DNA of 35,473 bases, taken from the IMG/VR virus record IMGVR_UViG_3300046536_000267, positions 1-35,473 of that record. The stretch is one strand, 5' to 3'. The position numbers and the translations under genes were made by a program. A model generated the notes under the pieces. That model was not told the origin of the DNA and did not search any database. It saw only the letters and a list, made by a program, of their open reading frames with translations. Source of the DNA: a virus. Positions 1,043 through 35,230 of this stretch are shown here, piece by piece. Within the stretch, counting starts at the first letter, position 1, and each line of letters begins with the position of its first letter.

Positions 1043-1071
1043 ATGATAATTCAGAGCGGTTTGATATACAA
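1043..1071 (-). promoter_or_regulatory. Promoter of the AWxTxR operon with ATCAAACCGCT element
   Basis: On the minus strand there is a -10 TATCAT (1043-1048), a 17-bp spacer and a weak -35 TTGTAT (1066-1071). The spacer begins with ATCAAACCGCT (1055-1065) directly next to the -35 hexamer. The promoter at 4011-4039 has the same element in exactly the same place. Transcription would run toward the start codon at 977. Confidence 0.5.
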
Positions 1072-1095
1072 GCAATAGCAAGCGGTCAGATTGTA

Positions 1096-1199
1096 GAAAC
1101 GTTAGCCTTTTCTGGCGGCGGCGGGTCTTTTGGCTGAAATCGCTAATCTTTTTCACAGATCCGCATTTATTTTTTGGGCTGGAAACGTTAGCCTTTTCT
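1096..1199. repeat. Pair of 18-bp direct repeats GAAACGTTAGCCTTTTCT
   Basis: Perfect copies lie at 1096-1113 and 1182-1199, 86 bp apart. A looser relative (GCTAATCTTTTTCA) lies between them near 1142. They stand in an AT-rich island between G-rich repeat block B and the promoter of the AWxTxR operon. They may be binding sites for a phage regulator or replication protein. Confidence 0.75.
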
Positions 1200-1207
1200 C
1201 GGTTTCG

Positions 1208-1552
1208 CGCGGCTGGCGAGGCGGCGGCTGGCAGCTGCTAGAGCGGCGGCGGCTGGCAGCTGGCGAGGCGGTAGGAGGCGGCTGGCGGCGGCGGCGGCTG
1301 GCGGCGGCTGGCGGCTGGCGAGGCGGCGGCTGGCAGCTGGCGAGGCGGCGGCTGGCAGCTGCTAGAGCGGCTGGCGAGGCGGTAGGAGGCGGCTGGCAGC
1401 TGCTAGGCTGGCGGCGGCGGCGGCGGTAGGAGGCGGCTGGCAGCTGGCGGCGGCGGCGGTAGGAGGCGGCTGGCAGCTGGCGGCGGCGGCGGTAGGAGGC
1501 GGCTGGCGGCGGCGGCTGGCAGCTGGCGAGGCGGCGGCGGGTTCCGCTCCTG
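1208..1552. repeat. G-rich low-complexity repeat block B
   Basis: It is built from the same units as block A (GGCGGCTGGCAG, CTGGCGAGGCGG, GGCGGTAGGAGG). It lies just downstream of the stop codon of the DUF2958 gene (1582) and upstream of the AT island, so it sits at a boundary between transcription units. Open frames on both strands through it are repeat artefacts. The plus strand is G-rich and could form G-quadruplexes; transcripts running in from the minus strand would be C-rich. Confidence 0.85.
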
Positions 1553-1581
1553 GCCAGCTGCTTAGGTTTCTCACTTCCCTG

Positions 1582-1983
1582 CTATTTTTTCCGCACCTTG
1601 CTGAGCGGCTGCGGCTCGAAGTGTAAATCGCGTTCGATGCGGAGCCCCCACTGGCCGCGCACCGCTTCCATCTCCGCTAGGCTGAAAGATCCGAGTTCCT
1701 CTTCGTGTCCCTGCACGAGCCCGAAGCATTCGTCGTCACCGTCGAACTCGAGCACGTACCAGGTCCAGTTGGACCACGGCGTAAAAAACTTCAGCCGCGC
1801 GATCGCGTCGTCGCCTTGTCCATCGGTCGAGTACAACGCCGGCAGCTGCGCGGCCTTCGCTGCGGCCACGAGCCCATGCGCGGCCGCGCGCTCCGCGAGC
1901 AGCTGGCGCTCTTCGAATGTCACCATGCAATCGTTGCACGTGCAGTGCGGGTCGTCCGCTTCGTGCCGTTCCTGTTGATTCAT
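1582..1983 (-). CDS. DUF2958 domain protein
   Basis: 133 aa. The core, LPALYSTDGQGDDAIARLKF followed by FTPWSNWTWYVLEFDG and then EEELGSFSLAEME with RGQWGLRIERDLHF, is the full DUF2958 pattern known from plasmids, phages and integrative elements. The biochemical role of the family is unknown. An N-terminal extension of about 40 residues carries HCTCNDC, a possible metal-binding cluster. The gene starts at 1983 with an ATGA overlap to the gene before it and is the last gene of the 3964-1582 operon; repeat block B follows its stop. Confidence 0.9.
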   Translation of the reverse strand: MNQQERHEADDPHCTCNDCMVTFEERQLLAERAAAHGLVAAAKAAQLPALYSTDGQGDDAIARLKFFTPWSNWTWYVLEFDGDDECFGLVQGHEEELGSFSLAEMEAVRGQWGLRIERDLHFEPQPLSKVRKK

Positions 1984-2231
1984 CGTTCCTCCGGTTCAGA
2001 TCGATTGAGGTCCCACGTCGGCCCGAGCGTGACAAGCGGCACCACGAACCCGCGCGCGATCAACTGCGGTTCGCAGTCTCGCCAGTCCCAATCGTCGCCG
2101 CGCCTCCGCTGAGCCGCGTCGAACGCTTCCACAGCTAACGTCTGTGCCGCAGCGATCGTCCAGGCATCGGGATACAGCACCACGCGCGCGTGCTCCTGGC
2201 CGTCCACGCTCTGTAACAGCAACACGTTCAT
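1980..2231 (-). CDS. Small hypothetical protein
   Basis: 83 aa, starting at ATG 2231 with GAGGAGG just upstream, which rules out the longer frame to 2564. It begins MNVLLLQSVDGQEHARVVLY and continues with an acidic/aromatic middle (RRGDDWDWRDCEPQ). No family is recognised. It overlaps the DUF2958 gene by ATGA and the gene before it by 4 nt, so it is translationally coupled within the operon. Confidence 0.75.
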   Translation of the reverse strand: MNVLLLQSVDGQEHARVVLYPDAWTIAAAQTLAVEAFDAAQRRRGDDWDWRDCEPQLIARGFVVPLVTLGPTWDLNRSEPEER

Positions 2232-2422
2232 CGAACCTCCTCGCAGTAGTCGCAGGCCATACACGCGATGAACGGCGCCGGGACCATTCGTGTTTCGATG
2301 CGTGATTGACCCACGGTGAAAAACGGCGGCACGACATCGCGACCGACCAGGCCATCGGTCACGAGCGTCAGCGCGCGCCGGCCGCACAGCGGACAGCGCG
2401 TCGGGTCTTGCGGTCGCTTCAC
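2228..2422 (-). CDS. Small zinc-ribbon protein
   Basis: 64 aa from GTG 2422, chosen because GTGA overlaps the upstream stop exactly as for its neighbours. Two Cys pairs, CPLC near residue 10 and CMAC with a following C near residues 54-60, are spaced like a four-cysteine zinc ribbon. Between them is a short beta-rich segment (VVPPFFTVGQ). It may be a nucleic-acid-binding or adaptor protein; the specific role is unknown. Confidence 0.75.
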   Translation of the reverse strand: MKRPQDPTRCPLCGRRALTLVTDGLVGRDVVPPFFTVGQSRIETRMVPAPFIACMACDYCEEVR

Positions 2423-2646
2423 TTCGGCTCTCGAATCTCGCGGCCGGTGCTCCGCACAATCGCGGCCACCGCGTCGAGCGTGTCGGCGGTCCACTGTTGG
2501 CTGTCCAGCAGCGAGCCGAGGCGGTCCAGTGCCTTGCTGTCGTCGTTCTCCATGCGCGCCGCAATCGTCACGAGCGCGCGCGCGATGCGCGGCATCGTGC
2601 CGTCATAGAATTGCTTCCCCATCCGCGTTTCGAAAAACTCAGGCAC
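2419..2646 (-). CDS. Conserved small phage-type protein
   Basis: 75 aa. It begins MPEFFETRMGKQFYDGTMPR and continues IARALVTIAARME, a pattern that recurs in small proteins of phages and integrated elements of GC-rich bacteria. It is probably all-helical. No function is known. It is coupled to the next gene by GTGA. Confidence 0.75.
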   Translation of the reverse strand: MPEFFETRMGKQFYDGTMPRIARALVTIAARMENDDSKALDRLGSLLDSQQWTADTLDAVAAIVRSTGREIREPK

Positions 2647-2647
2647 G

Positions 2648-2845
2648 TCAGACCTCCTTCACTTTGCGGCCGCGCCCTCGCCAGGCGAGGACCGGCGTCT
2701 CCTGCAACGCGGTCGCGAAGTCCACCGCCGGTTGCAGCTTGCGGAACGTGCGCTTCGACCCGAACATCAGGTCCACGTCTTCGCCGCACTCGCGTGTCGT
2801 GTCGTACTCTTCGACCACGATCCACACCTTGAATTCAATCGCCAT
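2648..2845 (-). CDS. Small hypothetical protein
   Basis: 65 aa beginning MAIEFKVWIVVEEYD and ending RGRGRKVKEV. It alternates strand-like and helix-like segments (possibly beta-beta-alpha), with an acidic middle (CGEDVDLMFGS) and a basic tail. It is not recognised. It lies one base from its downstream neighbour and three bases from its upstream neighbour, within the same operon. Confidence 0.7.
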   Translation of the reverse strand: MAIEFKVWIVVEEYDTTRECGEDVDLMFGSKRTFRKLQPAVDFATALQETPVLAWRGRGRKVKEV

Positions 2846-2848
2846 CGG

Positions 2849-3043
2849 TCAGGCCTCCCGTATGAGCGTGAAGACCAGCCGCCCGACGCGGCTGCCACGG
2901 AACACGAGCACGCGCAGCGGACCCGTCGTCGCGTCCGCATACATGCGCGCGCGGCCGACGGCGAGGTCCTTCGTGGTCTTGCCATCGAAGATCACGAACT
3001 GCTCGCCGTTCGGCTGCATCTGCACAACGCTGAACCACCTCAC
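2849..3043 (-). CDS. Small hypothetical protein
   Basis: 64 aa. The GTG at 3043 is preferred because GGAGAAATC precedes it and GTGA overlaps the upstream stop. It is mostly beta-strand-like (EQFVIFDGKTTKDLAVG, LRVLVFRGSRVGRLVF). No family is recognised. The longer frame extending to 3310 runs across the neighbouring gene and is unlikely. Confidence 0.7.
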   Translation of the reverse strand: MRWFSVVQMQPNGEQFVIFDGKTTKDLAVGRARMYADATTGPLRVLVFRGSRVGRLVFTLIREA

Positions 3044-3222
3044 GATTTCTCCTTCCCATCGGGCTCGGCTTTCTCGATGGCTGCGCGCAGTTGTTCGGCC
3101 AGCGCCCTCTCGTCCTCTGTGGCTTGACCGAGGTCGATCATCGTCACTAGGAGGCGTCGCGCCGATCGGCATGCTTCGAGTAAGTCCGGAGCCGCCGAGT
3201 TCAGTCTGGATGTTTTCGTCAC
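3040..3222 (-). CDS. Small helical phage protein
   Basis: 60 aa. The pattern APDLLEACRSARRLL followed by LAEQLRAAIEKAE matches a common type of small helical phage protein that begins with PDLLxA and ends with RxAIxKA. The function of these proteins is unknown. It overlaps both neighbours by 4 nt. Confidence 0.75.
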   Translation of the reverse strand: MTKTSRLNSAAPDLLEACRSARRLLVTMIDLGQATEDERALAEQLRAAIEKAEPDGKEKS

Positions 3223-3665
3223 AGGTACCCCGCCTCCTTGAAGCTGAAGTAGCCGCCGGCCGAGCCGATGATGATGTGGTCGGACACTTCGATACCGAGC
3301 AGCTGCCCACCAGCGATCAACCGCTTGGTCAGCGCCTGGTCGTCGGCGCTCGGGAACGAGTCGCCGCTCGGGTGTACGTGAGCCAGGATGATGCTCGCGG
3401 CGTTCGCGAGGATCGCAGCCTGAAAGACCGCGCGCCCATCGACGAGCGTCGCGTTCAACGTGCCTCGGCTCACTTCGTGGTAGGCGATCACCGTGCGCTT
3501 GATGCTCAGGCAGAGAATCCCGAAGACCTCGCCGGGCTCATGCGCCAGCACCGGCCGCAGCAGTTCCGCGGCCGCGCTCGGCATCGTGACCTGTCGCCCG
3601 ATGGCGACCGGGCCATCGGGCGTGTGCTTGACCGTATAGTGCACGGTCAGTTCTCGCAGCATCAT
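3219..3665 (-). CDS. RadC-like JAB/MPN domain protein
   Basis: 148 aa from the first of two ATG codons (3665), which forms ATGA with the upstream stop. The JAB/MPN metalloprotease-like motif is complete: E46, then HVHPSG at 96-101, then SADD at 106-109 (pattern H-x-H-P-S-G-x(4)-S-x2-D). The family is widespread on phages and plasmids as the C-terminal half of RadC. RadC was once linked to DNA repair, but the mobile-element versions have no settled activity. The N-terminal helix-hairpin part of chromosomal RadC is missing, which is usual for mobile versions. The longer upstream frame is a shadow of the 3662-3964 gene. Confidence 0.9.
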   Translation of the reverse strand: MMLRELTVHYTVKHTPDGPVAIGRQVTMPSAAAELLRPVLAHEPGEVFGILCLSIKRTVIAYHEVSRGTLNATLVDGRAVFQAAILANAASIILAHVHPSGDSFPSADDQALTKRLIAGGQLLGIEVSDHIIIGSAGGYFSFKEAGYL

Positions 3666-3964
3666 TCCGCGACCGCCGCGTTCTCTTCGAACTTCGCGTA
3701 GGCGTCGAGCACCACTTCGCGGATGCGGTTCTGCGCGTCGATGTCCACGATGGGCCGGAGCAGCGCGAACGAGCGGCGCTCGCCGTTCACCGAATACTGC
3801 CGCGCCGGAAACGTGACGTTGCGCCCGCCAGCTGCCCGCCGTTCCCAGATGCTGAACCCGATCAGCTTCAGCCCCGCGAGCGGTCCGTCCTCGAAGTGCA
3901 ACTCCGCATCGGCCAGCTTGCCGACCGGATTGCCGTGGTCGTTGGCGACGATCTTCACTGTCAT
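3662..3964 (-). CDS. Conserved hypothetical protein, first gene of operon
   Basis: 100 aa, ATG 3964 behind AGGAGAGTGTGGA. The centre LKLIGFSIWERR followed by NVTFPARQYSVNG and a final helix (IREVVLDAYAKFEE) gives a beta-rich domain plus a helix. The layout loosely recalls SpoVG-like proteins, but the resemblance is too weak to assign. It is the first gene after the promoter at 4011-4039, so it may be the most highly expressed of this operon. Confidence 0.8.
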   Translation of the reverse strand: MTVKIVANDHGNPVGKLADAELHFEDGPLAGLKLIGFSIWERRAAGGRNVTFPARQYSVNGERRSFALLRPIVDIDAQNRIREVVLDAYAKFEENAAVAE

Positions 3965-4010
3965 TCCACACTCTCCTATGGCTGCGGCAGGATGCGCGCA
4001 GCTGTAGATA

Positions 4011-4039
4011 AGTGTAGATGGTAGCGGTTTGATTGTCTC
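4011..4039 (-). promoter_or_regulatory. Promoter of the 3964-1582 operon with ATCAAACCGCT element
   Basis: The minus strand reads -35 GAGACA (4034-4039), a 17-bp spacer and -10 TACACT (4011-4016). The spacer starts with ATCAAACCGCT (4023-4033) directly next to the -35 box, in the same geometry as at 1043-1071. The start codon at 3964 lies about 45 nt downstream. Confidence 0.5.
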
Positions 4040-4046
4040 GATTTAT

Positions 4047-4640
4047 TTAAGCGGTTAGTTTGTCGCGCTTACGATGCGGGTGCAGACCGAGCGCGTAATA
4101 GGTCACGTTCGGCAGTTCGACCACCGACGCGTGGACGACCTTCGCGTAGTGCCACGTTTGGCTCAGCACCACGTTGTCGAGAAACGCCGCGAACTTCGGC
4201 GTCCGAGGCACCGCCCAGGTATTCGGAATCCCGCACGAGGTCAACACGCTCTTGCTCGTCACGCAGAACTGCACGCGGCCGCGCGTCAGGAACACGGCGA
4301 CCGGATCGCGCAGCTGTGGCAGGGCCGCGAGGTACGCGTCCCACGGCTCGCCGTACGGGTCGATGTCGATCACGTTGAAGCCGCCGAGGTCGAGCGCCTG
4401 GACCGCTTGCAGTGCCGAGAGTCGCAGCGTCCCGACTTGGCGCGGTGCGGTGTCGGAGCGGACCCAGGTCGCGATCTTCACGTGCTCGCGCATCGCGCCC
4501 CAGATGTGGCCAGCGCCCGCGCACGCGTCGAGCACCCGCACATCGGTGATGCCCATCGCATCGAGCAGCCACAGCCGCAGCTCCACCTTCGCCTTGAGCG
4601 ATCGGTTGTCCACCTTCGGCTTCGGCGGTCGTTTGTTCAC
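4047..4640 (-). CDS. Class I SAM-dependent methyltransferase-like protein
   Basis: 197 aa from GTG 4640 (GAGGCG upstream, GTGA overlap with the tiny gene before it). The motif I glycine loop is VLDACAGAGHIWGAM near residues 35-49. A motif IV-like VIDIDPYGEPWDAYL follows near residues 92-106. The D-x-D-P-Y-G form is unlike the NPPY/DPPY of DNA N6-adenine enzymes. It resembles the DPFG seen in Trm1-type guanine-N2 tRNA methyltransferases and some phage proteins, so the substrate is open. The C-terminal half is Cys-poor and beta-rich. It sits two genes after a ParB-like protein, a pairing often seen in phages, which suggests a joint role in nucleic-acid modification (inference). Confidence 0.75.
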   Translation of the reverse strand: MNKRPPKPKVDNRSLKAKVELRLWLLDAMGITDVRVLDACAGAGHIWGAMREHVKIATWVRSDTAPRQVGTLRLSALQAVQALDLGGFNVIDIDPYGEPWDAYLAALPQLRDPVAVFLTRGRVQFCVTSKSVLTSCGIPNTWAVPRTPKFAAFLDNVVLSQTWHYAKVVHASVVELPNVTYYALGLHPHRKRDKLTA

Positions 4641-4702
4641 CGTCGCCTCACGAGCAGGAGCATCACCGCGAACAGGACGAGCAGAGTCATCGCCAGCGTC
4701 AT
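4637..4702 (-). CDS. 21-aa single-span membrane peptide
   Basis: MTLAMTLLVLFAVMLLLVRRR, ATG 4702. It starts 2 nt after the ParB-like stop and ends in a GTGA overlap with the methyltransferase-like gene. One hydrophobic helix of about 16 residues is followed by three Arg, so the C-terminus should face the cytoplasm. It is short for a gene, but its tight junctions on both sides match every other gene pair in the operon. Upstream GAAG is a weak ribosome site, so translation probably depends on coupling. Its role is unknown; it could be a small holin-like or regulatory membrane peptide. Confidence 0.5.
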   Translation of the reverse strand: MTLAMTLLVLFAVMLLLVRRR

Positions 4703-4704
4703 GG

Positions 4705-5283
4705 TTACTTCTCGTCCTTCCCGCGAATCGTGATCCCGGTGAAGAGTGCATCGGTCTGCATGGCCTCCACCGCCGCCTGGTGCTTCGGCCATTCCTTCAG
4801 CGGAATCGCGACGAGCACCCATGCGATGTCGGCGGGTCGCGGCACCTCGAGCGGTCGGCGCTCCACCAGCGACTCGGCTGAGAGAATTGCACCGAGTTCC
4901 TTGTCGGTGAAGAACGGCGCGAGCTCCAGACCAGCGGCCTTGTCGGTCGCCAGCTGCTCGGGATTCCACGCGGCTAGTTCAGCGGTGCGGTTGTCGTACA
5001 TCGCCAGCTGGCGTTTCTCGTCGTCGGACAGGTTCCGCCGGCGCACAGCCACGAGTGTCTGCCCATCTGACTCGACCACCTGCACTTTAGTGATGCCTGC
5101 GGCCGAGGCTTGCTCCACCACGCCGTTGCCCGCGAGCACGACATCGTGCTCATCGATCACAATCGAGCGCGCGGCTCCCAGGTTTTCCAGCGACTGCTTG
5201 AGCAGTGCCTTGTTGCGTGTGGTGTGGCGGCGGCGGTTCTCCGGGTCCGCTTTCAATTTCCCGATCGCTATGGTCTTCGACAC
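4705..5283 (-). CDS. ParB/sulfiredoxin-fold (ParB N-like) protein
   Basis: 192 aa from GTG 5283; an in-frame TTG at 5286 is the alternative. A G-rich ribosome site lies just upstream. The N-terminal 60 residues follow the ParB N-terminal pattern: IAIGKLKADPENRRRHTTRN, then LLKQSLENLGAARSIVID, then VVLAGNGVVEQA (the GNG in place of the usual GHxR). A basic segment (VAVRRRNLSDDEKRQLAMYDNR) follows. The ParB helix-turn-helix is absent, so this is a phage ParB-like protein, not a partition protein. Relatives are found beside or fused to methyltransferases. The lost GHxR Arg/His makes CTP use uncertain. Confidence 0.85.
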   Translation of the reverse strand: MSKTIAIGKLKADPENRRRHTTRNKALLKQSLENLGAARSIVIDEHDVVLAGNGVVEQASAAGITKVQVVESDGQTLVAVRRRNLSDDEKRQLAMYDNRTAELAAWNPEQLATDKAAGLELAPFFTDKELGAILSAESLVERRPLEVPRPADIAWVLVAIPLKEWPKHQAAVEAMQTDALFTGITIRGKDEK

Positions 5284-5345
5284 CAAAATCTAACCCCCCC
5301 TTCCAATTTCGCGCGCCTCCACGCGAAGGGCCCGAGTGGTTTCAT

Positions 5346-5388
5346 TTGATCAATTTACGGCGCCTTTTGAATACGGGGAGGCCTCCCC
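5346..5388. promoter_or_regulatory. Intergenic palindromes upstream of the ParB-like gene
   Basis: The 5287-5410 gap holds two perfect palindromes: TTGATCAA at 5346-5353 and GGGGAGGCCTCCCC at 5375-5388. The second folds only into a 5-bp stem with a 4-nt loop and has no T-tract, so an operator is at least as likely as a terminator. The gap presumably contains the promoter for the ParB-like, 21-aa and methyltransferase-like genes. Confidence 0.4.
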
Positions 5389-5410
5389 ACGTGCGGATGT
5401 TTCGCGCGGC

Positions 5411-5728
5411 TCACGCACCACGGCCGGTCTTCCGACCGTGACAACGCACGCACAGCGCCTGCAAGTTCTCACGTCTCCAAAATAGAATCAGGTCGCCGCG
5501 GTGCGGCTGGATGTGGTCCACCTCGGAGGTCCGAGCACCGCACCGGCCGTCGATGCCCGGGCAGGTCGGCTGCATCAAGAGCACGAGCGCGCGCAGCGCG
5601 AACCAGCGCGGCGTTCGATAGAGGCGACGCACGTCCACGTTCGGTCGGTCGCGTTCCTTCGGCCGATGTCGTTCGCAGCGGCCGCGCTCCACGATTACAG
5701 AACAGCCTGGCTGTGTGCAGTACTGCAT
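5411..5728 (-). CDS. HNH endonuclease
   Basis: 105 aa. The HNH core is complete: C56 and C63, then EVDHIQPHRGD with H72, then ENLQALCVRCHGRKT with N88, C93, C96 and H97. An N-terminal CxxxxC..C..H cluster (C4, C9, C18, H21) may bind a second metal. Phage HNH proteins of this size nick or cut DNA and in HK97-like phages often assist terminase at cos. Here the gene is about 28 kb from terminase in the window, although close to it across the presumed circle junction. A role in packaging is therefore possible but not shown. Confidence 0.9.
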   Translation of the reverse strand: MQYCTQPGCSVIVERGRCERHRPKERDRPNVDVRRLYRTPRWFALRALVLLMQPTCPGIDGRCGARTSEVDHIQPHRGDLILFWRRENLQALCVRCHGRKTGRGA

Positions 5729-5731
5729 CGG

Positions 5732-6049
5732 TCACCGATTCGTGGCCTGTTGTTCTTTGGCTGCCCAAAACGCTTTACGCCCAATCGTTTGTAGCTGCGC
5801 GCGGGCCTCGTCACGTTCGCGGCACGCGATGAACAAATCGTTGCGAGCGGACCGGAGGTCGGCTTCCGTTTCTTCCAGTGACGAGCCGAGCATCTCCTTC
5901 TCGATCACCTGGTCAGCGGCGAAGCCAACCAGCCATACGAGCCGCGCTTCTGGATCGCTGGCGTGTGCCTCGGCCAGTTCCATGATTGACTTCGCGATGC
6001 GCGCGAGGTCCGCCAGGTATTGCTGCCGTCCGTCGAGCGGCTCAGCCAC
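5732..6049 (-). CDS. Coiled-coil hypothetical protein
   Basis: About 105 aa from GTG 6049; TTG 6064 is an alternative start. GGAAA lies 8 nt before the GTG. The C-terminal half (EMLGSSLEETEADLRSARND, then RERDEARAQLQ) is a clear heptad coiled coil. The N-terminal half is also helical (YLADLARIAKSIMELAEAHA). No family is recognised. It is the first gene of the unit that leads into the HNH nuclease, and three stacked inverted repeats lie directly upstream (6067-6128). Confidence 0.7.
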   Translation of the reverse strand: MAEPLDGRQQYLADLARIAKSIMELAEAHASDPEARLVWLVGFAADQVIEKEMLGSSLEETEADLRSARNDLFIACRERDEARAQLQTIGRKAFWAAKEQQATNR

Positions 6050-6066
6050 GTCGCCGGTTTCCAAAT

Positions 6067-6128
6067 TGCATTTTCAAAATGCAGGTTCCACGTGGAACGT
6101 ATAGAGCACCCGCCTGGTGAGCGGGTGC
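6067..6128. promoter_or_regulatory. Three consecutive perfect inverted repeats
   Basis: TGCATTTT-C-AAAATGCA (6067-6083), the palindrome GTTCCACGTGGAAC (6085-6098) and GCACCCGC-N7-GCGGGTGC (6106-6128) follow each other almost without gap, just upstream of the 5732-6049 gene. The third is an anticodon-arm-like hairpin (7-nt loop CTGGTGA) preceded by ATAGA. They may be operators for the downstream gene, accessory sites of the attP region, or, for the third, a terminator of plus-strand readthrough. Confidence 0.55.
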
Positions 6129-6141
6129 CGCTGGCGGTTTG

Positions 6142-6410
6142 GTTTGTGTGCAGTTTGTATGCGTACTCGACGTGATGGGCGGTTGCGAGAATGGAACGAC
6201 CGGAAGAGAAATGCAGAAATAGCTAAGTAAATGCGGAGTTGTATACATCCATCGTCGCGCGTGGAATCCCGGCAGCTGCTTAGGAGGCGGGTGCTCTATC
6301 CGCTGAGCTACGGGCGCAAATGGTTGCATGATTAGGAGTTGTCGCTTTTGATCAACCGTGGCCTGAATTTGGTTTTGCTGTTTGTGTGCAGTTTGTGTGC
6401 GTTCTCGACG
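6142..6410. repeat. 31-bp direct repeats flanking the tRNA-like site (putative integrase arm sites)
   Basis: The segments 6142-6172 and 6380-6410 match over 31 bp with two mismatches, in the same orientation. Each contains two tandem copies of a GTTTGTGTGC-like unit. The right copy lies inside the integrase C-terminal codons (the HKLHTN region). They flank the tRNA-like core at 6278-6317 at roughly 105 and 63 bp, the arrangement expected for arm-type sites around a core in attP. Confidence 0.65.
6278..6317 (-). other. 5' half of a tRNA-Arg(CCU)-like gene, probable attP core
   Basis: Read on the minus strand from 6317: acceptor 5' strand GCGCCCG, TA, D-stem GCTC, 8-nt D-loop AGCGGATA, D-stem GAGC, A, anticodon stem CCCGC, loop CTCCTAA (anticodon CCU). 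After GC the sequence stops matching: no GCGGG partner strand, T-arm or acceptor 3' strand follows. It cannot be a working tRNA. It lies 15 bp after the integrase stop codon, between 31-bp direct repeats. The likely reading is that it is the attP core, identical to part of a host tRNA-Arg gene up to the anticodon loop. Confidence 0.65.
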
Positions 6411-7738
6411 GATTTGCCACCGACTGCCTGGCGGAGTGTAGCAGCGGCGGCGGCGGCGGCTTCCGCATCGGCCTTCCGCTTGGCGTCGTACGCCTGCTGT
6501 GCGGTGCGCGCGCTCCCGGCCTCGACGTGCAGGTACGTGGCGGTCTGCGCGATGGTGGTGTGCCCGAGCCGGAGGCGGATCTGGTCGAGGTTCCACTGCC
6601 CACTTTCGAGCCAGCGACACGCCGCCTCGTGGCGGATGTCGTGGATGTGTTTGTTGATGTCCCGCAGCTGCGCCCGGGTCGCCGCGTCGTAGTCGCCCTT
6701 CTCGGTCCACACCGGCTCGATGCGGCAGGCGCGCAGGAGCGTCGTCGCCCAGGCTTTCTTCACGCTCTTGAGGCGGTCGCCGTAGGCATCGCCGAAGACG
6801 TAGGCGGTCAGCTTGAACTTCTTCCCGGCCGGGTCCAGCTGGCGCGCGAGCAGCAGCGGGTCGAGCACGTCGGAGATGTCGATCTTGCGCTCGCCGGTCT
6901 TGCCCGCGCCGACCTCCACGCCGCGGATGTGGATCGTCTTCGTGTCGAAGTGCACATCCTTCCACTGAAGCGCGAGCAGTTCGCCGACGCGCGCGCCGGT
7001 TTCCATCAACGCCGTGAGCAGGCCGACGAAGCGGGCGCCGTCCATCCGGAGCTCCGTCGCGGCTTCGAGAATGTCATCCCACAGCGAGCCGAGGAACCGT
7101 TCACGCCGCTGCGTCGATTGGCTGCGGCCGACCTTCTTCAGCATCGCCGGCGGCGAGTCGGTGAGAATGTCGCGCTCGATGTGGTCGTGCCACCGGGCCC
7201 AGGACCACAGCTGCCCGAGCACGGTGCGGATCTTGTTCCACGTGCTCGCGGACAGTTCCTCCTGCTCCGCGCGAAATTCGATGAGGTCTTCGAGCGTGAT
7301 GTCGGCCATGACGCGGGCGCCGAGGCGATCGCCGTCCACCTCGGTGCGGCACAACCGCTTCAGGTGCGCGCGGTCATTCGCTTTCGAGTTGTCGGCTTTC
7401 TCGGCATCCTTGTCGATACAGATGCGCGCGAAGGCCTCCGCGACCACATCGAGCGTTTGACCTGGCTGCGTGGTCTTCGGCGGCGGCGGCGGTCGATGGG
7501 CTTTCGCTCGTGCATACGTGCCCAGGCGAATCGCCTTGACCACATCGAGCGCGATGTTCTCGGCGTCGGCCTTCGTTTCGAGCGGTTCCGGCCGCGCGAG
7601 CACCACGGCCACATGGCGGGTCAGGTTCGGCGCGTAGGGTGTGCCACCCCACCGAATCTGTTTCAAGTACCACGGATGGCTGCACTTCGGCCACTTGACC
7701 TCCGCGCACGCGCATCGCTTCGTGACGAGTGAGGTCAT
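6332..7738 (-). CDS. int: Tyrosine site-specific integrase
   Basis: 468 aa. A Cys/His N-terminus (C9, C11, C19, H21 followed by W23) resembles the small zinc-like leader of many phage integrases. A SAM-like/core-binding domain spans about 95-185. The catalytic domain holds R250 (ETGARVGELLAL), H366-x-x-R369 (HDIRHEAACRWL), H393 (LGHTT) and the nucleophile Y402 (TYLH). It should catalyse integration and excision between attP and a host attB. The tRNA-like attP lies directly after the stop codon, which fits. An Ala/Lys-rich tail follows Y402, and its codons contain one of the 31-bp arm repeats. The start at 7738 overlaps the RHH gene by ATGA. Confidence 0.97.
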   Translation of the reverse strand: MTSLVTKRCACAEVKWPKCSHPWYLKQIRWGGTPYAPNLTRHVAVVLARPEPLETKADAENIALDVVKAIRLGTYARAKAHRPPPPPKTTQPGQTLDVVAEAFARICIDKDAEKADNSKANDRAHLKRLCRTEVDGDRLGARVMADITLEDLIEFRAEQEELSASTWNKIRTVLGQLWSWARWHDHIERDILTDSPPAMLKKVGRSQSTQRRERFLGSLWDDILEAATELRMDGARFVGLLTALMETGARVGELLALQWKDVHFDTKTIHIRGVEVGAGKTGERKIDISDVLDPLLLARQLDPAGKKFKLTAYVFGDAYGDRLKSVKKAWATTLLRACRIEPVWTEKGDYDAATRAQLRDINKHIHDIRHEAACRWLESGQWNLDQIRLRLGHTTIAQTATYLHVEAGSARTAQQAYDAKRKADAEAAAAAAATLRQAVGGKSVENAHKLHTNSKTKFRPRLIKSDNS

Positions 7739-7989
7739 CGGCGTGCACCCTGAAGCGCGACTTCGGCAGCCGCGCGCACGAAGCCAGCCGTCTTGAGTTT
7801 CTTTTCAATCGAGGCCAGCGAGTCCGGCCGGGTCTGGAGCCAGAGCGCGAGCGCCAGTTCGATTTGCCGATTGATCGGGATGCCCTCGCGTTCCTTGATG
7901 GCGTCCAGCTGCGCCTTCAGGTCCGTGTCCATCGTGATGCCCATCGCCTTTTGTGTGTCCCGCCTGCGAATCGGTGCTTTGTTTTTCAT
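7735..7989 (-). CDS. Ribbon-helix-helix-like DNA-binding protein
   Basis: 84 aa from ATG 7989, which excludes the long upstream extension. A strand-like AMGITMD is followed by helices DLKAQLDAIKEREG and PINRQIELALALWLQ, the layout of MetJ/Arc/CopG proteins. A C-terminal helix extends it. It is cotranscribed with the integrase (ATGA overlap), and inverted repeats stand directly upstream (7993-8032). It could therefore regulate its own expression and the integrase's, or act as a directionality factor. No ribosome site is obvious before the ATG. Confidence 0.75.
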   Translation of the reverse strand: MKNKAPIRRRDTQKAMGITMDTDLKAQLDAIKEREGIPINRQIELALALWLQTRPDSLASIEKKLKTAGFVRAAAEVALQGARR

Positions 7990-7992
7990 GTA

Positions 7993-8032
7993 TAGAAGCG
8001 TATATGGAACTTCTAGAAATGTCTCGACATTT
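7993..8032. promoter_or_regulatory. Two inverted repeats before the RHH/integrase genes
   Basis: TAGAAG (7993-7998) pairs with CTTCTA (8010-8015) across 11 nt, and AAATGTC-TC-GACATTT (8017-8032) is a perfect 7-bp inverted repeat. Both lie in the AT-rich gap between the HTH gene stop (8031) and the RHH start (7989). They are good candidates for the operator of the RHH protein; no T-tract supports a terminator. Confidence 0.5.
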
Positions 8033-8318
8033 ATTTTGCCCCAGGTTTGCGGCCGCGCCGCGCGAAGGTCAGCGGTTGCGGGTCGCCCACGAGCTCGGGC
8101 GCGTCGGGATTCACCACGGTCGGTATGCTCAAGCTGACCATCCAGGCCATGAGCCAGCTGTCGAGAATCCGGATGTCGTTCCGCGTGCCGAGCCGAGACG
8201 CGCGCAGCCGGCCGCGCTGGATGTTCTCGTAGATCAACCGCGTCGAGCATTTCGCCCGAGCCGCGGCCTCTTTCACCGTCAACCATTCCGCCGTTGCGAT
8301 CTGCGGTTCTGCGTTCAT
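8031..8318 (-). CDS. Helix-turn-helix (HTH_17/excisionase-type) protein
   Basis: 95 aa, ATG 8318, ATGA overlap. Residues 11-45 (EWLTVKEAAARAKCSTRLIY, then a wing with RLRASRLG) form the MerR-like winged HTH typical of excisionase and AlpA-type proteins. R50-I51 with L52 complete the wing. A Pro-rich segment and a basic tail (ARRGRKPGAK) follow. Its place two genes upstream of the integrase makes an excisionase (xis) role plausible, though DNA-binding regulators share this fold. Confidence 0.8.
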   Translation of the reverse strand: MNAEPQIATAEWLTVKEAAARAKCSTRLIYENIQRGRLRASRLGTRNDIRILDSWLMAWMVSLSIPTVVNPDAPELVGDPQPLTFARRGRKPGAK

Positions 8319-8503
8319 CGAGGCCTCACGTTCGTCACGAGCACCGAGCGGCTGGCCATGCCCACACCGTCGATGGGTTTGATGAGCACGACGAGGCGCC
8401 CTTCCGGTGTCGGCTCGCGGAGGACCTGGGCCTCGATGTCGCGCTGGAATTCTCCACCGCGACTCAGGCGGTACCACACCTTGTCGCCAGGCTTCAAGGT
8501 CAT
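8315..8503 (-). CDS. Small SH3/KOW-like protein
   Basis: 62 aa. It begins MTLKPGDKVWYRLSRGGEFQ and continues with VLREPTPEGRLVVLIK, the look of a small beta-barrel that opens with a PGDxVxY turn, as in KOW or SH3-like folds. The function is unknown. It is coupled on both sides by ATGA overlaps. Confidence 0.7.
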   Translation of the reverse strand: MTLKPGDKVWYRLSRGGEFQRDIEAQVLREPTPEGRLVVLIKPIDGVGMASRSVLVTNVRPR

Positions 8504-8835
8504 CGCTTCGCCGCCTTCCGCGCGGCCGCTCGGTTCTCCGCGAGGCGCCGCCCATGCCGTCGCCGGATCTGCGTCGTCGTCGCGTCTTGCTGGCGGGTGA
8601 TCAGCTTCAGCACGGCAGGCGGGAGAATGAACCGCGCCGAGCCCACCGCATTCACCTGCGTCACGAACGCGGTCGGCCCCTCTTCGGTCTTCACGGTCTG
8701 CACCATGAACGAGGTGACGTTCCCGTAGAAGTCGGTTGCCTGCACCACGCTCGGCTGCGTATGGGCGCCGTTCGGCAGTCCGACCAGGCGCGACAACAGC
8801 TTGTCGAATGGGTCCGTCGGCAGTGCGTCACTCAT
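8500..8835 (-). CDS. Hypothetical protein with basic C-terminus
   Basis: 111 aa from ATG 8835 with GGGAGGAACGGGC upstream, so the longer frame is rejected. The N-terminal half is mixed alpha/beta, with TDFYGNVTSFMVQTVKTEEG. The last 30 residues are strongly basic (TTTQIRRRHGRRLAENRAAA, then RKAAKR), suggesting nucleic-acid contact. No family is recognised. Confidence 0.7.
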   Translation of the reverse strand: MSDALPTDPFDKLLSRLVGLPNGAHTQPSVVQATDFYGNVTSFMVQTVKTEEGPTAFVTQVNAVGSARFILPPAVLKLITRQQDATTTQIRRRHGRRLAENRAAARKAAKR

Positions 8836-9026
8836 GCCCGTTCCTCCCTGCTCACCACCGGCTGTGATCGGCCTGACCGCTGACCGCCTGCCGTGAGCGG
8901 ATTCCTGGCGAGGCGCGCAGCGGCCGCGCGCACGCGCAGCGGCACCAGGCCACGCCGCAGCTGGCGACACTGCCACTCGGTGAGCAGCATCCAGCACTGG
9001 CACGCGCGCGGCGTCCGTCTACCCAC
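8832..9026 (-). CDS. Small Arg-rich protein
   Basis: 64 aa from GTG 9026, with AGAGGAACC just upstream and an ATGA overlap at its end. It is rich in Arg and Trp (CQCWMLLTEWQCRQLRRGLV) and carries a CxC plus a third Cys. No family is recognised. It is real by spacing, but the sequence is low in conserved features. Confidence 0.55.
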   Translation of the reverse strand: MGRRTPRACQCWMLLTEWQCRQLRRGLVPLRVRAAAARLARNPLTAGGQRSGRSQPVVSREERA

Positions 9027-9294
9027 GGTTCCTCTTCCGTGTGTTCCGCCGCGCGTGTTCCGCCTCGCAGATTTGCGCCACGGTGCGCCCACAGGCCTGC
9101 TCGAGCCGGGTGATCGTGTCGGCCCACACGTCGGGACAGTCCACGTACTGTTCGAGCAAGCAGACGAGTTCTTCCACGTCGCGCACTCGAATCGAGATCA
9201 CAGGTTCGTCGTCGGCCGCGCGCGTGGCCGTATGGCAGGTCGCGCACCGTTCGATGCCGACACCGTCGCGATAGCGGTCGCCTTTGCGAATCAT
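9019..9294 (-). CDS. Hypothetical protein with a CxxC motif
   Basis: 91 aa. ERCATCHTA near residue 15 is a CxxCH motif. The middle (EPVISIRVRDVEELVCLLEQ) is alpha/beta, and the C-terminus is basic (EAEHARRNTRKRNRG). There is no signal peptide, so the CxxCH is unlikely to be a haem c site and more likely binds metal. It is not recognised. It overlaps the next gene by 8 nt. Confidence 0.7.
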   Translation of the reverse strand: MIRKGDRYRDGVGIERCATCHTATRAADDEPVISIRVRDVEELVCLLEQYVDCPDVWADTITRLEQACGRTVAQICEAEHARRNTRKRNRG

Positions 9295-9299
9295 TGGTT

Positions 9300-9443
9300 T
9301 CAGTACGGAAACAGGATCGAAGCGAACCAGCAGGCGAGGCCCGCCGCGACCATGTTCACGCGCTCATCTTTGGGCACGTTGAAGACCGCCAACAATTCGC
9401 AGAGAAACGCGAGCACCATCAGGACGAGCTTGGCCGATGTCAT
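9300..9443 (-). CDS. Two-span small membrane protein
   Basis: 47 aa from ATG 9443, with GAGGA 4 nt upstream. Helix 1 is LVLMVLAFLCELLAVF, followed by a short charged turn (NVPKDERVN), then helix 2 MVAAGLACWFASILF. This hairpin with RVNxVAxGLAxW is a common tiny phage membrane protein of unknown function. It could be a holin-like or accessory lysis protein, but its place next to the integration genes does not support that specifically. Confidence 0.75.
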   Translation of the reverse strand: MTSAKLVLMVLAFLCELLAVFNVPKDERVNMVAAGLACWFASILFPY

Positions 9444-9509
9444 CGTGTCCTCGCTTTCATGGAGTAAGATCCGTTCCCGCTCCAACCGTTCACCTGAAAG
9501 GATTTCCTC

Positions 9510-9884
9510 ATGCCCTCGAAACTTGTGATGATGTCGTGGAACGACGACTCTCCCCTCGGTCCGTCGAACGCACTGCCGACGCCGCCGATGTATCCATCGG
9601 GCGGGTTCCCAGTCGCACCCGGCTATCCGTCAGGCGGGTTCCCCGTCGCACCCGGCCATCCATCAGGCGGGTTCCCGATTGCGCCTGGCCTGCCGATCAC
9701 GCTGCCCGTCTTCCCGTACGATCCGACCCTCGAACCGACGCCGCCCATCGCCGGGACGACGCCGCCGCCGCCGACCACGAAACCCATCGAGCCGGGCGCG
9801 CGCTTCATCGTGAAGTGGCTCGCCTGCGTCGGCCTCATCTTGGTGCCGGACAACACGCTGCCGCCGACCGCGACCCCGAAGTAG
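9510..9884 (+). CDS. Pro/Gly-repeat protein on the plus strand
   Basis: 124 aa, ATG 9510 with AAAGGA 8 nt upstream. Residues 28-60 are three tandem 11-residue repeats of the form YPSGGFPVAPG. A Pro/Thr-rich linker (TPPIAGTTPPPPTTKPIEPG) and a C-terminal domain RFIVKWLACVGLILVPDNTL follow. Similar Pro-rich proteins with a final aromatic segment occur in metagenomic phages, with no known function. It is one of only three plus-strand genes, diverges from the membrane-protein gene at 9443, and faces the minus-strand gene at 9955. Separate regulation from the rest of the phage is likely. A virion or surface role is possible. Confidence 0.8.
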   Translation: MPSKLVMMSWNDDSPLGPSNALPTPPMYPSGGFPVAPGYPSGGFPVAPGHPSGGFPIAPGLPITLPVFPYDPTLEPTPPIAGTTPPPPTTKPIEPGARFIVKWLACVGLILVPDNTLPPTATPK

Positions 9885-9913
9885 ATCGCCGATCACAGTG
9901 GCCACCACAGTCG

Positions 9914-9935: not shown

Positions 9936-9954
9936 TGGCTGGTATTTCAGGGGC

Positions 9955-31327: not shown

Positions 31328-31330
31328 CGC

Positions 31331-31651: not shown

Positions 31652-31852
31652 ATGCCAGCCGACGACCGCACGCGGGCCGCTCGTGGTCGGCCTGCCGTGT
31701 CTGCTGGCGAACGCTCCACCCCGATCTGCGTCACGGTCGGCGATTCGGATTTCAAACGCGTCTACGACCGGGCCCAACGCGAGCGCACCTCGATGCCGGC
31801 CGTCGTACGCCAGGCCATCACTAACTGGCTGGACGACGATCGGGACGACTAG
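31652..31852 (+). CDS. Ribbon-helix-helix (CopG-like) protein, plus strand
   Basis: 66 aa, ATG 31652. STPICVTVGDSDFKRVYDRA is the strand and first helix, RERTSMPAVVRQAITNWLDD the second helix, as in CopG/Arc regulators. The basic N-terminal arm (DDRTRAARGRP) may touch DNA. It points against the late operon and overlaps the terminase stop by 4 nt, an unusual place for a regulator. It could control late genes or act as an antitoxin; no toxin partner is visible. No strong ribosome site is seen. Confidence 0.75.
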   Translation: MPADDRTRAARGRPAVSAGERSTPICVTVGDSDFKRVYDRAQRERTSMPAVVRQAITNWLDDDRDD

Positions 31853-33531
31853 GCGAACACGAGGTCCGGATCGTCGGCGACCTGCGGTGCGTTCAGTCGC
31901 AGTTGTAAATTCCACGCAATCGCCAGCGCCACAATCGGGTCGATGCGGCCGCGGCTCTTACGTTTCACCGGGTAGATGTTGTCCTTGTTGTCCCGCTGCA
32001 CGACCGCGTTCCCCGCGCACCACAGCATCAACGGACAGCCGCCAGCGTCCACCGCGCCGGCCGATACTTCAGCTTCCATCGCCTTGCAGCCGCTCGACAT
32101 TCCGGCGAATGTCTGCGGCACGTCGAGCGCCTGTTCTTCCGCGTACCCGTCTTCGGTGACCAGCTGCACCTGGAGCTGCTCGGCGTGCCACGGATCGAAC
32201 CCGACCGCGCGAATCGTGACCACCTCACTCAAGTCGGCCAGCGTCTCGCGGAACACCTGGTGGTTGACGATGTGTCCCGGCGTGGCGATGAGCACGCCCA
32301 TCTCGACCCACGTCTGATACGGCGCACGGTCGCGCTCGGCTCGCTTCGCGAGTGTGTCGGCTGGCGTGAACACCCACCGGCACACCGCCCACCGCCGCCG
32401 CGTCTCCGTCGGCGGAAAGAGCGCCACGAGCGCAGCCAGGTCCTGCTTCGACGCCAGGTCGATGCCCACGACGCAGGCCTCGCCGCGCAGGTCCTCCAAC
32501 GTCCAGAGGCCGCTCTGCCCGAGTTGCCACCCGTCAATCGAGAGCCAGGGATCGAACGCGCTCACCCACAGATTCAAATGCTTCTGCTTGTACGTCGCGG
32601 CCGCACTGTGCATCCCGATGGCCTTGATCCGCTTCGACAACAGGTCGTCCGGATTCACCGACACGCCGTAATTCGGATTCGCTTTCCGCGCTGTGGCCTC
32701 GGCGGTCCAATCGTCCTCGGGGTCCGCGTGCGCGATGAACGCGAAGTACGTCTCGTCGGTCAGCGTGCCTTCGAGCAGCTCGCAGGCGTACCGATGCTCA
32801 TCACCGCACGGTGAGACGAGGTCGCTGCCCGCTGTGGTGATCTTGAAGACGAGCGGTTGTCGCCGCGCACCCGTCGCGGTTTCGAGCACGTCGATCATGC
32901 CGCGCGTGCGGTAGGCGTGCAGTTCGTCCATGTTCACGAAGTGCGGGTTCAGCCCATCGGTCGAATCCACGTCGGCCCCGAGCGGTTCCAGCTTCGACGC
33001 CGTGCTCGCGCGGGACAGGTTCGCTTGCAGCGGGACCAACCGGGTGTGCAGACCGCTGCGCTCGACGAGCCGCTTCGCATCGTTGAAGACGATCTTCGCC
33101 TGGTCGCGCTTCGTCGCCGCGCAGTAACCTTCGGCGCCTGGCTCTGGCGGGTCATCGAAGAACGTCACGTAGATCGCGACCACCGCCGCTTCCAGCGACT
33201 TGCCTTGCTTGCGTGGGAGTTCGTTGTACGCGTTTCGGAATCGGCGCAGGCCTGTCTCGACGTGCACCCATCCGAAGACCGAGCCGAGGCGGAACACCTG
33301 GTGCGGCTGCCAGCGAATGTACTGCCCGGCCCATTCGCCCTTGTAGTGCCGCAGCTGCTCCCCGAAGCGCAGGAACCGCTCCGCCTTCGCGATGTCGAAC
33401 CGATACGGAAACTCTGGCGTGTTCTCGCGCGCGCGGTCCCGCTGGTGGCGCGCACACGAGAGCCGATGATACTTGCCGGCCGGGATCGCGCCCGACACCA
33501 CCGCGTCGGCGTACGCGTCGATCGGATGCAC
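31849..33531 (-). CDS. terL: Terminase large subunit (HK97 type)
   Basis: 560 aa from GTG 33531 with GGAGG 4-5 nt upstream. Walker A is NELPRKQGKS (R107-S112); Walker B is PHFVNMDE (D202, E203); the nuclease part begins VVGIDLASKQDLAAL with D358 and ends RGRIDPIVALAIAWNLQL, which gives the last acidic residue. It translocates DNA into the prohead and cuts it. HK97-like enzymes make cos ends with 3' or 5' overhangs, often with help of an HNH nuclease, and one is present at 5411-5728. Confidence 0.97.
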   Translation of the reverse strand: MHPIDAYADAVVSGAIPAGKYHRLSCARHQRDRARENTPEFPYRFDIAKAERFLRFGEQLRHYKGEWAGQYIRWQPHQVFRLGSVFGWVHVETGLRRFRNAYNELPRKQGKSLEAAVVAIYVTFFDDPPEPGAEGYCAATKRDQAKIVFNDAKRLVERSGLHTRLVPLQANLSRASTASKLEPLGADVDSTDGLNPHFVNMDELHAYRTRGMIDVLETATGARRQPLVFKITTAGSDLVSPCGDEHRYACELLEGTLTDETYFAFIAHADPEDDWTAEATARKANPNYGVSVNPDDLLSKRIKAIGMHSAAATYKQKHLNLWVSAFDPWLSIDGWQLGQSGLWTLEDLRGEACVVGIDLASKQDLAALVALFPPTETRRRWAVCRWVFTPADTLAKRAERDRAPYQTWVEMGVLIATPGHIVNHQVFRETLADLSEVVTIRAVGFDPWHAEQLQVQLVTEDGYAEEQALDVPQTFAGMSSGCKAMEAEVSAGAVDAGGCPLMLWCAGNAVVQRDNKDNIYPVKRKSRGRIDPIVALAIAWNLQLRLNAPQVADDPDLVFA

Positions 33532-33540
33532 GAACCTCCG

Positions 33541-34017
33541 TCAGTTGTAGCGAATCGGCGGCGGGTCGAATTCTGCGAACGGGTCCGCCGCTGGCGCATC
33601 GATCACGCGGACGCGTGTGCGGCTGGATGGCGTCAACCCGAGTTCCGGCCACAGCTTCGTGCAGGCCACGAGCGCCTTCGTCGCCACACTGAGATACGGA
33701 TTAGGCATCGGGTATCCGCTCGGCGTCAACACCACCAGCGTGGTCACTTTCGACAGCGCCTCGAGGTAGCGGCCCCACTCGATGCACAGCGCCATCAACG
33801 CACTGTGATCGGCATCGCTCACTTGCCGCGCGGCCGTGAGCAGCGGGACCAGGCGCCGCCACTCCGCGATTGCGGCCGGGTGCGTCAGTTCAGGCGGGAC
33901 CGCGCGATAGGCGTCGGCCGATGTGGTGATCTGCGGTTCCTCGTCGTTCACCGGCCGATGCCCAGGATTCCCGGCCAGCTGTCGTTGCGACGAGGTCTTC
34001 GGTTTGCGGCCGCGCAT
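33541..34017 (-). CDS. terS: Terminase small subunit, P27 family
   Basis: 158 aa. MRGRKPKTSSQRQLAGNPGH, ELTHPAAIAEWRRLVPLLTA, SDADHSALMALCIEWGRYLE, then GYPMPNPYLSVATKALVACT with GLTPSSRTRVRV is the complete P27/Terminase_4 pattern. It recognises the packaging site and hands DNA to TerL. Nine bases separate it from terL. Its last residues (FAEFDPPPIRYN) are typical. Confidence 0.95.
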   Translation of the reverse strand: MRGRKPKTSSQRQLAGNPGHRPVNDEEPQITTSADAYRAVPPELTHPAAIAEWRRLVPLLTAARQVSDADHSALMALCIEWGRYLEALSKVTTLVVLTPSGYPMPNPYLSVATKALVACTKLWPELGLTPSSRTRVRVIDAPAADPFAEFDPPPIRYN

Positions 34018-34020
34018 GGG

Positions 34021-34188
34021 TCAGTTCGGCTTCGATTGTTGCTGGTCTTCGATCTTGGCGACCGCCGACTTGATCGCCACCAGTTCTTCCATCGCCTCGA
34101 ATAGCAGCCGCTTCGCGCTCGTCAGGTGGTCGGCCACGCGCACCAGGCGGTTGGCGATGTCCTGAAACTCCGGATCTCTCTTGGTCAC
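34021..34188 (-). CDS. Small coiled-coil protein
   Basis: 55 aa from GTG 34188 (GTGA overlap with the gene before it). VTKRDPEFQDIANRLVRVAD then SAKRLLFEAMEELVAIKSAV and a Gln/Lys tail form a continuous amphipathic helix. The longer overlapping frames nearby are shadows. It lies directly before terS; function unknown. Confidence 0.68.
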   Translation of the reverse strand: MTKRDPEFQDIANRLVRVADHLTSAKRLLFEAMEELVAIKSAVAKIEDQQQSKPN

Positions 34189-34937
34189 AGCAACCTCGCT
34201 GGCTCAAACGAGGTCTTCGGAAACGCGCGTTGGATCTTGCCGTCCAGTTCGATGCCCATCTCCGTGCGCGGTGCGGCCGACTGCTTGAAGAAAAACGCGG
34301 TCTTCGCTTTTCGGCAGCGGACCTGGAGCTCGCGCGCCCACGCAACTTCCATCGGCCGGAACCCGGGACCGGATTCGCCGCCGACGATCAGCCACTCGAT
34401 ATGCTTCAGGTCTAGCGATGGCAGCGGACCGAGCAGCGGTTCCGCCGAGACGAAATGCACCGCCGCCGGCACCTGCGTGAGCAGCTGCGCGCGGTGACTG
34501 TGGCGGTCGTTCTCGATGCTGACCCCGAGCCACACATGCGGCCACGGCCAGCCGACCGGCAGCATCGCCGGAATGTTCTCCGGCCGCTTCGTCAGGATCT
34601 GGAAGTCCAGCCATTCGGCTTCACGCATCGCGGCCCAGGCCTGCGGCCGCACCGCGTTCGCGTCCGGATGGTCTTCGAAGAAATCGCCGAGCGACATCAC
34701 GAACACCCGTTGCCGGATGCGCGAGGCGGCGGCGGCGCGGTTCCACTTTCGAATGTTGGCGTACACGCCAGCGACCGGCTGGCGTTTGCTCTCCCCTGGC
34801 GGGCCCCACACGTGCAGCTGCATCCGATTGATCGTTAGGACCTCGGCGTAACAGTGCGCGCAGCCCGGCGAGATTTTCTCGCAGCCCATCCAGAAATTCG
34901 CGGTGTTGTTCGTCCACGCGATGATCGAGTCTTGCAT
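34185..34937 (-). CDS. Phage Gp37/Gp68 family protein (DUF5131)
   Basis: 250 aa. NFWMGCEKISPGCAHCYAE gives C19, C26 and C29, the hallmark cysteine set of the family, which looks like a radical-SAM-type iron-sulphur site. GVYANIRKWNRAAAASRIRQ, FVMSLGDFFEDHPD, then LTKRPENIPAMLP, VWLGVSIENDRHSHRAQLLT and FVSAEPLLGPL follow in the usual order, and FFFKQSAAP ends the core. The family is frequent in temperate phages and unexplained; a nucleotide or DNA-modifying role has been suggested by analogy only. Confidence 0.9.
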   Translation of the reverse strand: MQDSIIAWTNNTANFWMGCEKISPGCAHCYAEVLTINRMQLHVWGPPGESKRQPVAGVYANIRKWNRAAAASRIRQRVFVMSLGDFFEDHPDANAVRPQAWAAMREAEWLDFQILTKRPENIPAMLPVGWPWPHVWLGVSIENDRHSHRAQLLTQVPAAVHFVSAEPLLGPLPSLDLKHIEWLIVGGESGPGFRPMEVAWARELQVRCRKAKTAFFFKQSAAPRTEMGIELDGKIQRAFPKTSFEPARLL

Positions 34938-34955
34938 CAGGCCAGCCCCCTCATG

Positions 34956-35213
34956 CTACTCCTGCCCTTTTTTGAATTGCTCGCGGCGGGTCTGCCACCG
35001 CCAGCCGTGCGCGCCGCAGCTGGCATCGAGCGCGCGATCGGCGTGCCCACCCACCACAGGTTCGCCGCAGTGCGTACACACACGGCGCGGTCGTCCGGCT
35101 TTCTTGGCGTTCTGTTTCCGCGCGCGTTTTTGTTTCGCCGTGTTCGCGAGCCCACCGAGGCGCCCGAGAATAGCGGCCGGATTGTCGTCTGTCGGTTTAG
35201 TTTTTTTGGCCAT
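34956..35213 (-). CDS. Small basic protein with zinc-finger-like C-terminus
   Basis: 85 aa, ATG 35213, no clear ribosome site. The N-terminal half (NPAAILGRLGGLANTAKQKR, ARKQNAKKAGRPRR) matches the short GxLGGxA...K-rich pattern of small phage DNA-binding-like proteins. CTHCGEPVVGG with a later C and H (ASCGAHGWRW) could bind zinc. It heads the late region. The shared element ATCAAACCGCT is only 7 nt upstream of its ATG, so the true start or transcript start may be unusual. Confidence 0.7.
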   Translation of the reverse strand: MAKKTKPTDDNPAAILGRLGGLANTAKQKRARKQNAKKAGRPRRVCTHCGEPVVGGHADRALDASCGAHGWRWQTRREQFKKGQE

Positions 35214-35219
35214 AGTTTG

Positions 35220-35230
35220 AGCGGTTTGAT
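35220..35230 (-). promoter_or_regulatory. Third copy of the ATCAAACCGCT element
   Basis: The same 11-bp sequence as in the promoters at 1043-1071 and 4011-4039. Here the matching -10 position would fall on the ATG of the 34956-35213 gene (ATGGCC) and the -35 would be GCTAAA, so a normal promoter in this geometry is weak. It may act as a regulator site for the late operon. Confidence 0.5.

Follow-up and report, generated by a model that had tools for sequence, protein, structure and literature searches.

A conserved putative operator shared by three promoter-like sites of an uncultured temperate-like phage

The 11-bp element and the units behind it

We analyzed a stretch of viral DNA 35,473 nucleotides long (IMG/VR virus record IMGVR_UViG_3300046536_000267, positions 1 to 35,473; hereafter the window) that encodes a terminase, a portal, a protease, a major head protein and an integrase, and that carries a tRNA-Arg(CCT)-like phage attachment site (attP) beside the integrase gene. 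The main genes of the window all lie on the minus strand. An 11-bp element, ATCAAACCGCT, is present in exactly three exact copies on the same strand, at 1055-1065 (site 1), 4023-4033 (site 2) and 35220-35230 (site 3), as reported in a first-pass annotation of the sequence; the plus strand of the whole window contains none. Markov models of order 1-3 predict 0.012-0.018 exact copies by chance on both strands together, consistent with the expectation in that annotation that chance copies should be almost absent. Outside the GC-rich repeats, the window has 245 11-mers with three or more copies (the 80 listed are mainly GC-rich words). Because of this background, recurrence by itself is not proof, and conservation in relatives became the main test.

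Each copy stands ahead of the first gene of a minus-strand unit. Behind site 1 lies the gene for an AWxTxR repeat protein (708-977), followed in the same unit by a second AWxTxR-type gene (186-629). Site 2 precedes the gene for P0002, a conserved protein of 100 aa (3662-3964), which shares its unit with a RadC-like JAB-domain gene (3219-3662). The first gene behind site 3 encodes P0003, a protein of 85 aa (GRxGG...GRPRRVC..C...GGH...C..HGW; 34956-35213) and a candidate autoregulated regulator; the DUF5131 gene is second (34185-34937), and the late region, with the terminase large subunit (31849-33531), is located downstream.

The first-pass annotation missed that the two ends of the window adjoin, which places sites 1 and 3 about 1.3 kb apart. 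In three relatives (G002, G003 and L138) the P0003 gene and the terminase come immediately after the AWxTxR gene, and 1340, 1055 and 1343 bp, respectively, separate site 1 from site 3, compared with 1308 bp across the window ends. Because the contig ends adjoin in these relatives, a circular or permuted genome is probable, with the three units next to one another in a predicted order of P0002/RadC unit, AWxTxR unit and late region. Both contig ends fall within GC-rich GCCAGC-type repeats. Dense GCCAGC/GCCGCC-type repeats fill three intergenic stretches of the window (1-180, 1205-1545 and 35235-35473) and are probably the reason for the contig break there.

Conservation, promoter geometry and a 14-bp dyad

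Relatives were gathered via P0002 (37 loci), P0003 and the DUF5131 gene. Upstream of the same genes, we find the element of site 1 in four relatives (G001, G002, G003 and L138), that of site 2 in three (G001, G002 and G003) and that of site 3 in these relatives as well as in L046 and L168 with one or two changes. L138 was obtained by searching viral contigs with the loose pattern ATCANACCGCTN{4,8}AYACTT, the matches of which are mostly due to chance. In gap-free comparisons of diverged relatives, the identity of the 11-mer is 0.89 at site 1 vs 0.57 and 0.46 in the flanks, 0.94 at site 2 vs 0.44 and 0.45, and 0.86 at site 3 vs 0.36 and 0.50. The 11-mer is the most conserved 11-bp window in each upstream region, tied with the window one base off. 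It was not found at the corresponding place in phages with P0002 homologues outside this clade. The first-pass annotation would have taken relatives that keep the promoters and lose the element as a refutation; instead, the element is kept at all three places while its flanks diverge.

The minus-strand sequence is TTGTAT-ATCAAACCGCTCTGAAT-TATCAT at site 1 (1071-1043, score 37.7) and GAGACA-ATCAAACCGCTACCATC-TACACT at site 2 (4039-4011, score 34.6). The spacer is 17 bp in both promoters and the element occupies its −35-proximal part, in agreement with the earlier description of an element that abuts a −35 box, fills the start of a 17-bp spacer and has the same geometry to the −10 at both sites. 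The −35 boxes are weak and the −10 boxes good. The layout of the site 1 promoter is repeated in G001, G002, G003 and L138, and the site 2 promoter is kept in G001, G002 and G003. A strict promoter scan of positions 1-10000 called no promoter. At site 3 (TGCTAAAATCAAACCGCTCAAACTATGG) the end of an extended −10 (TGCTAAAAT, 35229-35237, minus strand; TGCTACAAT or CTACAAT in relatives, by sequence comparison) is shared with the element, which ends 6 bp before the ATG at 35213 and has no −10 downstream of it. Relative to the −10, the element is therefore upstream at sites 1 and 2 and downstream at site 3, and in both arrangements the putative operator overlaps the predicted polymerase footprint, either within the spacer or directly after the −10.

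More distant phages that carry P0003 have AGCGGTCTGAT, AGCGCTCCGA and like forms at comparable places. Combined, these forms yield a degenerate 14-bp dyad with the consensus halves TCGGAGC and GCTCCGA, of which the 11-mer represents the better-conserved half plus the core. In the window the dyad is TCAAACCGCTCTGA at 1051-1064 for site 1, and its frame is 4019-4032 for site 2 and 35216-35229 for site 3, where it falls after the −10 and ahead of the start codon. The dyad is found inside TTGACA-N16-18-TAYACT-type promoters of L048, L174, L204, L172, L173 and others, with a perfect TTGACA and a near-optimal spacer around it in L048 and L204. By these sequence comparisons, ATCAAACCGCT is a real, evolutionarily conserved and functional-looking site, belonging to a putative operator family broader than the first-pass annotation had reported.

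Position-matrix scans of the full window recover the three sites with held-out matrices. A matrix built without the window and G001 ranks them 1, 2 and 3 of ~35,460 positions, and a matrix from non-syntenic phages only ranks site 1 first, site 2 twelfth and site 3 fourth. When one lineage at a time is left out, sites in the other contigs rank 1 to 14. Using simple promoter rules, promoter-type dyads were called 25 times in 231 kb of P0003-positive loci (a few of these calls are one site called on both strands, or spurious), never in 225 kb of P0003-negative loci whose terminase belongs to the same clade, and twice in 701 kb of loci where the terminase is more distant. The dyad matrix was trained on part of the P0003-positive loci, and the L204 sites are outside the training set. 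A degenerate pattern for the full promoter and operator matches only two contigs of the viral collection (L204 and L048), both P0003-positive; as the pattern was written from these phages, this result shows rarity, not discovery.

The dyad is partly repeated 27 bp upstream (mean identity 0.42 vs a background of 0.255 +/- 0.055), and the next best offset is 26 bp. The weaker copy of site 1, ATCTGACCGCTTGCT, lies 26 bp upstream (1077-1091, minus strand), and that of site 2, AACTAACCGCTTAAA, lies 27 bp upstream (4046-4060, minus strand) and ranks 9 in the window. The latter overlaps the stop codon of the 4047-4751 gene and could reflect coding constraint at the C-terminus of its product. Two variants had been noted previously: the one at 1081-1091 is retained here as part of the weaker upstream copy, and the one near 6135 (6133-6143) is rejected as a fourth promoter, since it sits without a −10 in the tRNA-Arg/integrase attachment region, beside ACGCAnACAAACTGCACACAAAC-type repeats. 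A second conserved motif, AAAAGGCTAACGTTTC, is also located upstream of site 1, in two exact copies (1097-1112 and 1183-1198) and one relative (about 1136-1152); similar sequence is present in G001, G003 and L138 and before one L204 promoter.

A predicted regulon and its candidate regulators

We propose, with a probability of about two in three, that one dimeric, probably repressing and probably phage-encoded regulator acts on putative 14-bp operators at the three adjacent promoters, which would form one regulon. We infer the repression, the dimeric binding and the phage origin of the regulator. A homodimer would bind the operator where it overlaps the footprint of RNA polymerase, occupying the −35/−10 spacer at sites 1 and 2 and, at site 3, the bases that directly follow the −10 of a gene with almost no leader, so that the promoters would be shut together. 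The weaker copy ~27 bp upstream may allow cooperative binding. The head gene of the late region would then be switched together with the RadC and AWxTxR units, as one regulon. The first-pass annotation had suggested either one regulator or a phage-specific promoter element. Retention of the element at all three places supports a shared trans-acting factor, and the promoter-element part is revised here to an operator laid over host-type promoters, because the position relative to the −10 varies and relatives carry a full TTGACA-N17-TAYACT around the dyad. Compared with an activator or a special sigma factor, a repressor is the better fit because the site overlaps polymerase contacts at variable positions and the promoters in relatives are otherwise good sigma70 promoters.

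Of the genes in the window, those for P0003 and the two terminase subunits are the only ones found in nearly all dyad-bearing loci, and in most lineages the dyad directly precedes the P0003 gene. P0003 is zinc-ribbon-like, with the conserved motifs GRxGG, GRPRRVC, CxxC, GGH and CGxHGW. As the protein that tracks the operator best it is the leading candidate for the regulator, as an autoregulator, although at a probability well below one half. It matches no family above the curated thresholds of Pfam or NCBIfam and none in PHROGs at E 0.001, and no homologue was found in named phages or plasmids. A first structure model was poor and a second moderate (predicted local distance difference test, pLDDT, 72). 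It is possible, if doubtful, that P0003 represents a new family of phage regulators, which would bind the dyad TCGGAGCGCTCCGA, repress its own nearly leaderless gene and control late and accessory promoters separately from CI/Cro. Operator regulons are known as a kind; the site and its possible regulator are without counterpart in the collections searched here. The predicted regulon (site, promoters and target genes) applies to a group of uncultured phages and narrows the search for the regulator to a few genes and three sites.

Several observations weigh against a dimeric regulator on a dyad, or against P0003 as that regulator. By eye, site 1 of the window matches in 5/7 pairs and sites 2 and 3 in only 3/7; the sites of related phages are clearly palindromic, and window sites 2 and 3 are largely one-sided. 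Near-match counts of TCGGAGCGCTCCGA do not exceed those of shuffled palindromes; it is promoter context and conservation, not dyad counts, that carry the case. Both the dyad consensus and the association with P0003 derive mostly from loci fetched with P0003, and some of the P0003-negative loci are short. The P0003 model has no significant structural match, none in the PDB, and shows no recognised DNA-binding fold. The dyad is absent directly before the P0003 gene in L170, L173, L174 and L204, and for L048, L169 and L176 coding sequence may account for part of the site 3 match.

An activator or phage-specific promoter element, in which a phage factor at the element recruits the host polymerase, is the first alternative. 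A precedent is the T4 MotA box of middle promoters, which has its centre at −30 and takes the place of the −35 (PMC2988021). Sites 1 and 2 resemble it in placing a box beside a sigma70 −10 at fixed spacing, where the −10 is good and the −35 weak (TTGTAT and GAGACA). The dyad differs in being centred near −21, in coexisting with a perfect TTGACA and near-optimal spacer in L048 and L204, and in lying downstream of the −10 at site 3. We regard recruitment of this type as unlikely.

In SOS promoters the LexA operator sits in the spacer, as is usual for LexA in known bacteria, and the dyad shares this location between the −35 and the −10. A host regulator such as LexA could therefore be the binder, and the phage units would follow host stress. 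The dyad sequence is unlike the LexA boxes known to us. It is absent from the promoters of five Acidobacteriota lexA genes, and none of six trial genomes contains the promoter-operator pattern; since these genomes need not represent the host, both points are weak. The confinement of the promoter-type dyad to P0003-positive phages also speaks against a host factor, which we consider rather unlikely.

Cox/Apl-type excisionase-repressors are small helix-turn-helix proteins, each of which binds repeats both at attP and at promoters. The window encodes an excisionase-like HTH_17 protein (8031-8318, minus strand) that might act in this way; it is kept in G001 and G002, and an imperfect element copy (ACCAAACCGCC / ATCAAACCGCC) is found in the attP regions of the window and G001. 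This copy is not retained after an exchange of the integrase and attP: in G002, which carries another integrase, no element was seen in the attP region, yet all three promoter sites are kept. HTH_17 is found in 5/18 contigs, as is HTH_3, and not in most other dyad contigs, many of which are partial. We consider HTH_17 an improbable binder.

Integrase and attP mark the phage as temperate-like, and it also encodes an XRE/HTH_3 protein (16605-16859, minus strand), as expected if a CI/Cro-type immunity repressor were the binder. The dyad is missing from the control regions between the divergent HTH_3 genes of L209 and L175, and no strong dyad lies upstream of the XRE gene of the window, which makes such a repressor a poor candidate. 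Of the binders proposed in the first-pass annotation, XRE is disfavoured on these grounds, the RHH gene was found, apart from the window, in the closest relative alone, and HTH_17 has the patchy distribution given above. Similar to lambda-type operators for dimeric CI/Cro (as described in PMC9283540), the dyad is a palindrome over a polymerase site, and its tandem copies are separated by a few helical turns; it differs in sequence, in its absence from the CI/Cro-type region of two relatives and in having one strong and one weak copy per promoter. The immunity repressor of Cluster A mycobacteriophages binds as a monomer to more than 20 asymmetric 13-mers, including intergenic ones where elongation is stopped (PMC9283540). 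Shared with these operators and stoperators are a short site repeated at promoters of one temperate phage, its orientation with transcription, and, on the reading proposed here, one regulator for scattered units. Here, unlike the stoperators, there are only three strong sites, all at promoter-like places and all from a dyad family, and no homologue of the Cluster A repressor was found. Finally, chance recurrence or recent duplication of a short functionless word, which the many 11-mers recurring three times would allow, is very hard to maintain for sites that are conserved at orthologous places in diverged phages, have flanks unrelated among the three sites and are predicted by held-out matrices.

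Attachment region and further sequence features

The integrase gene is followed by a 40-nt tRNA-Arg(CCT) gene fragment (window 6260-6315 and 6332-7738), which is likely attP. It is flanked by ACGCAnACAAACTGCACACAAAC repeats (6133-6170 and 6375-6405), one of which has the 6133 near-match at its end; these are probably arm-type sites of the integrase. Near-identical tRNA stretches (1-2 mismatches) occur in 2/247 Acidobacteriota genomes, which is only suggestive as a pointer to the host, and a host search via terminase and tRNA-Arg gave no firm host. At this locus, the integrase of G002 (L007 2399-3900) is a different one, accompanied by a tRNA-Cys-like attP and several GCTACCCT repeats, suggesting a module swap of integrase and attP in which the three promoter sites were retained.

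In other phages, the putative operator precedes genes for von Willebrand-type proteins (DCSGSM motif), a kinase-like protein and small alanine/lysine-rich proteins (L204 6122-10600, L048 3466 and L174 3975). A perfect palindrome, AAATGTCGAGACATTT (8017-8032), lies just upstream of the RHH gene (7735-7944), and TCGAGACA is also present just before site 2. Three 33-bp tandem repeats at 9591-9689 of the window encode a collagen-like GNPPDGxPGAT motif.

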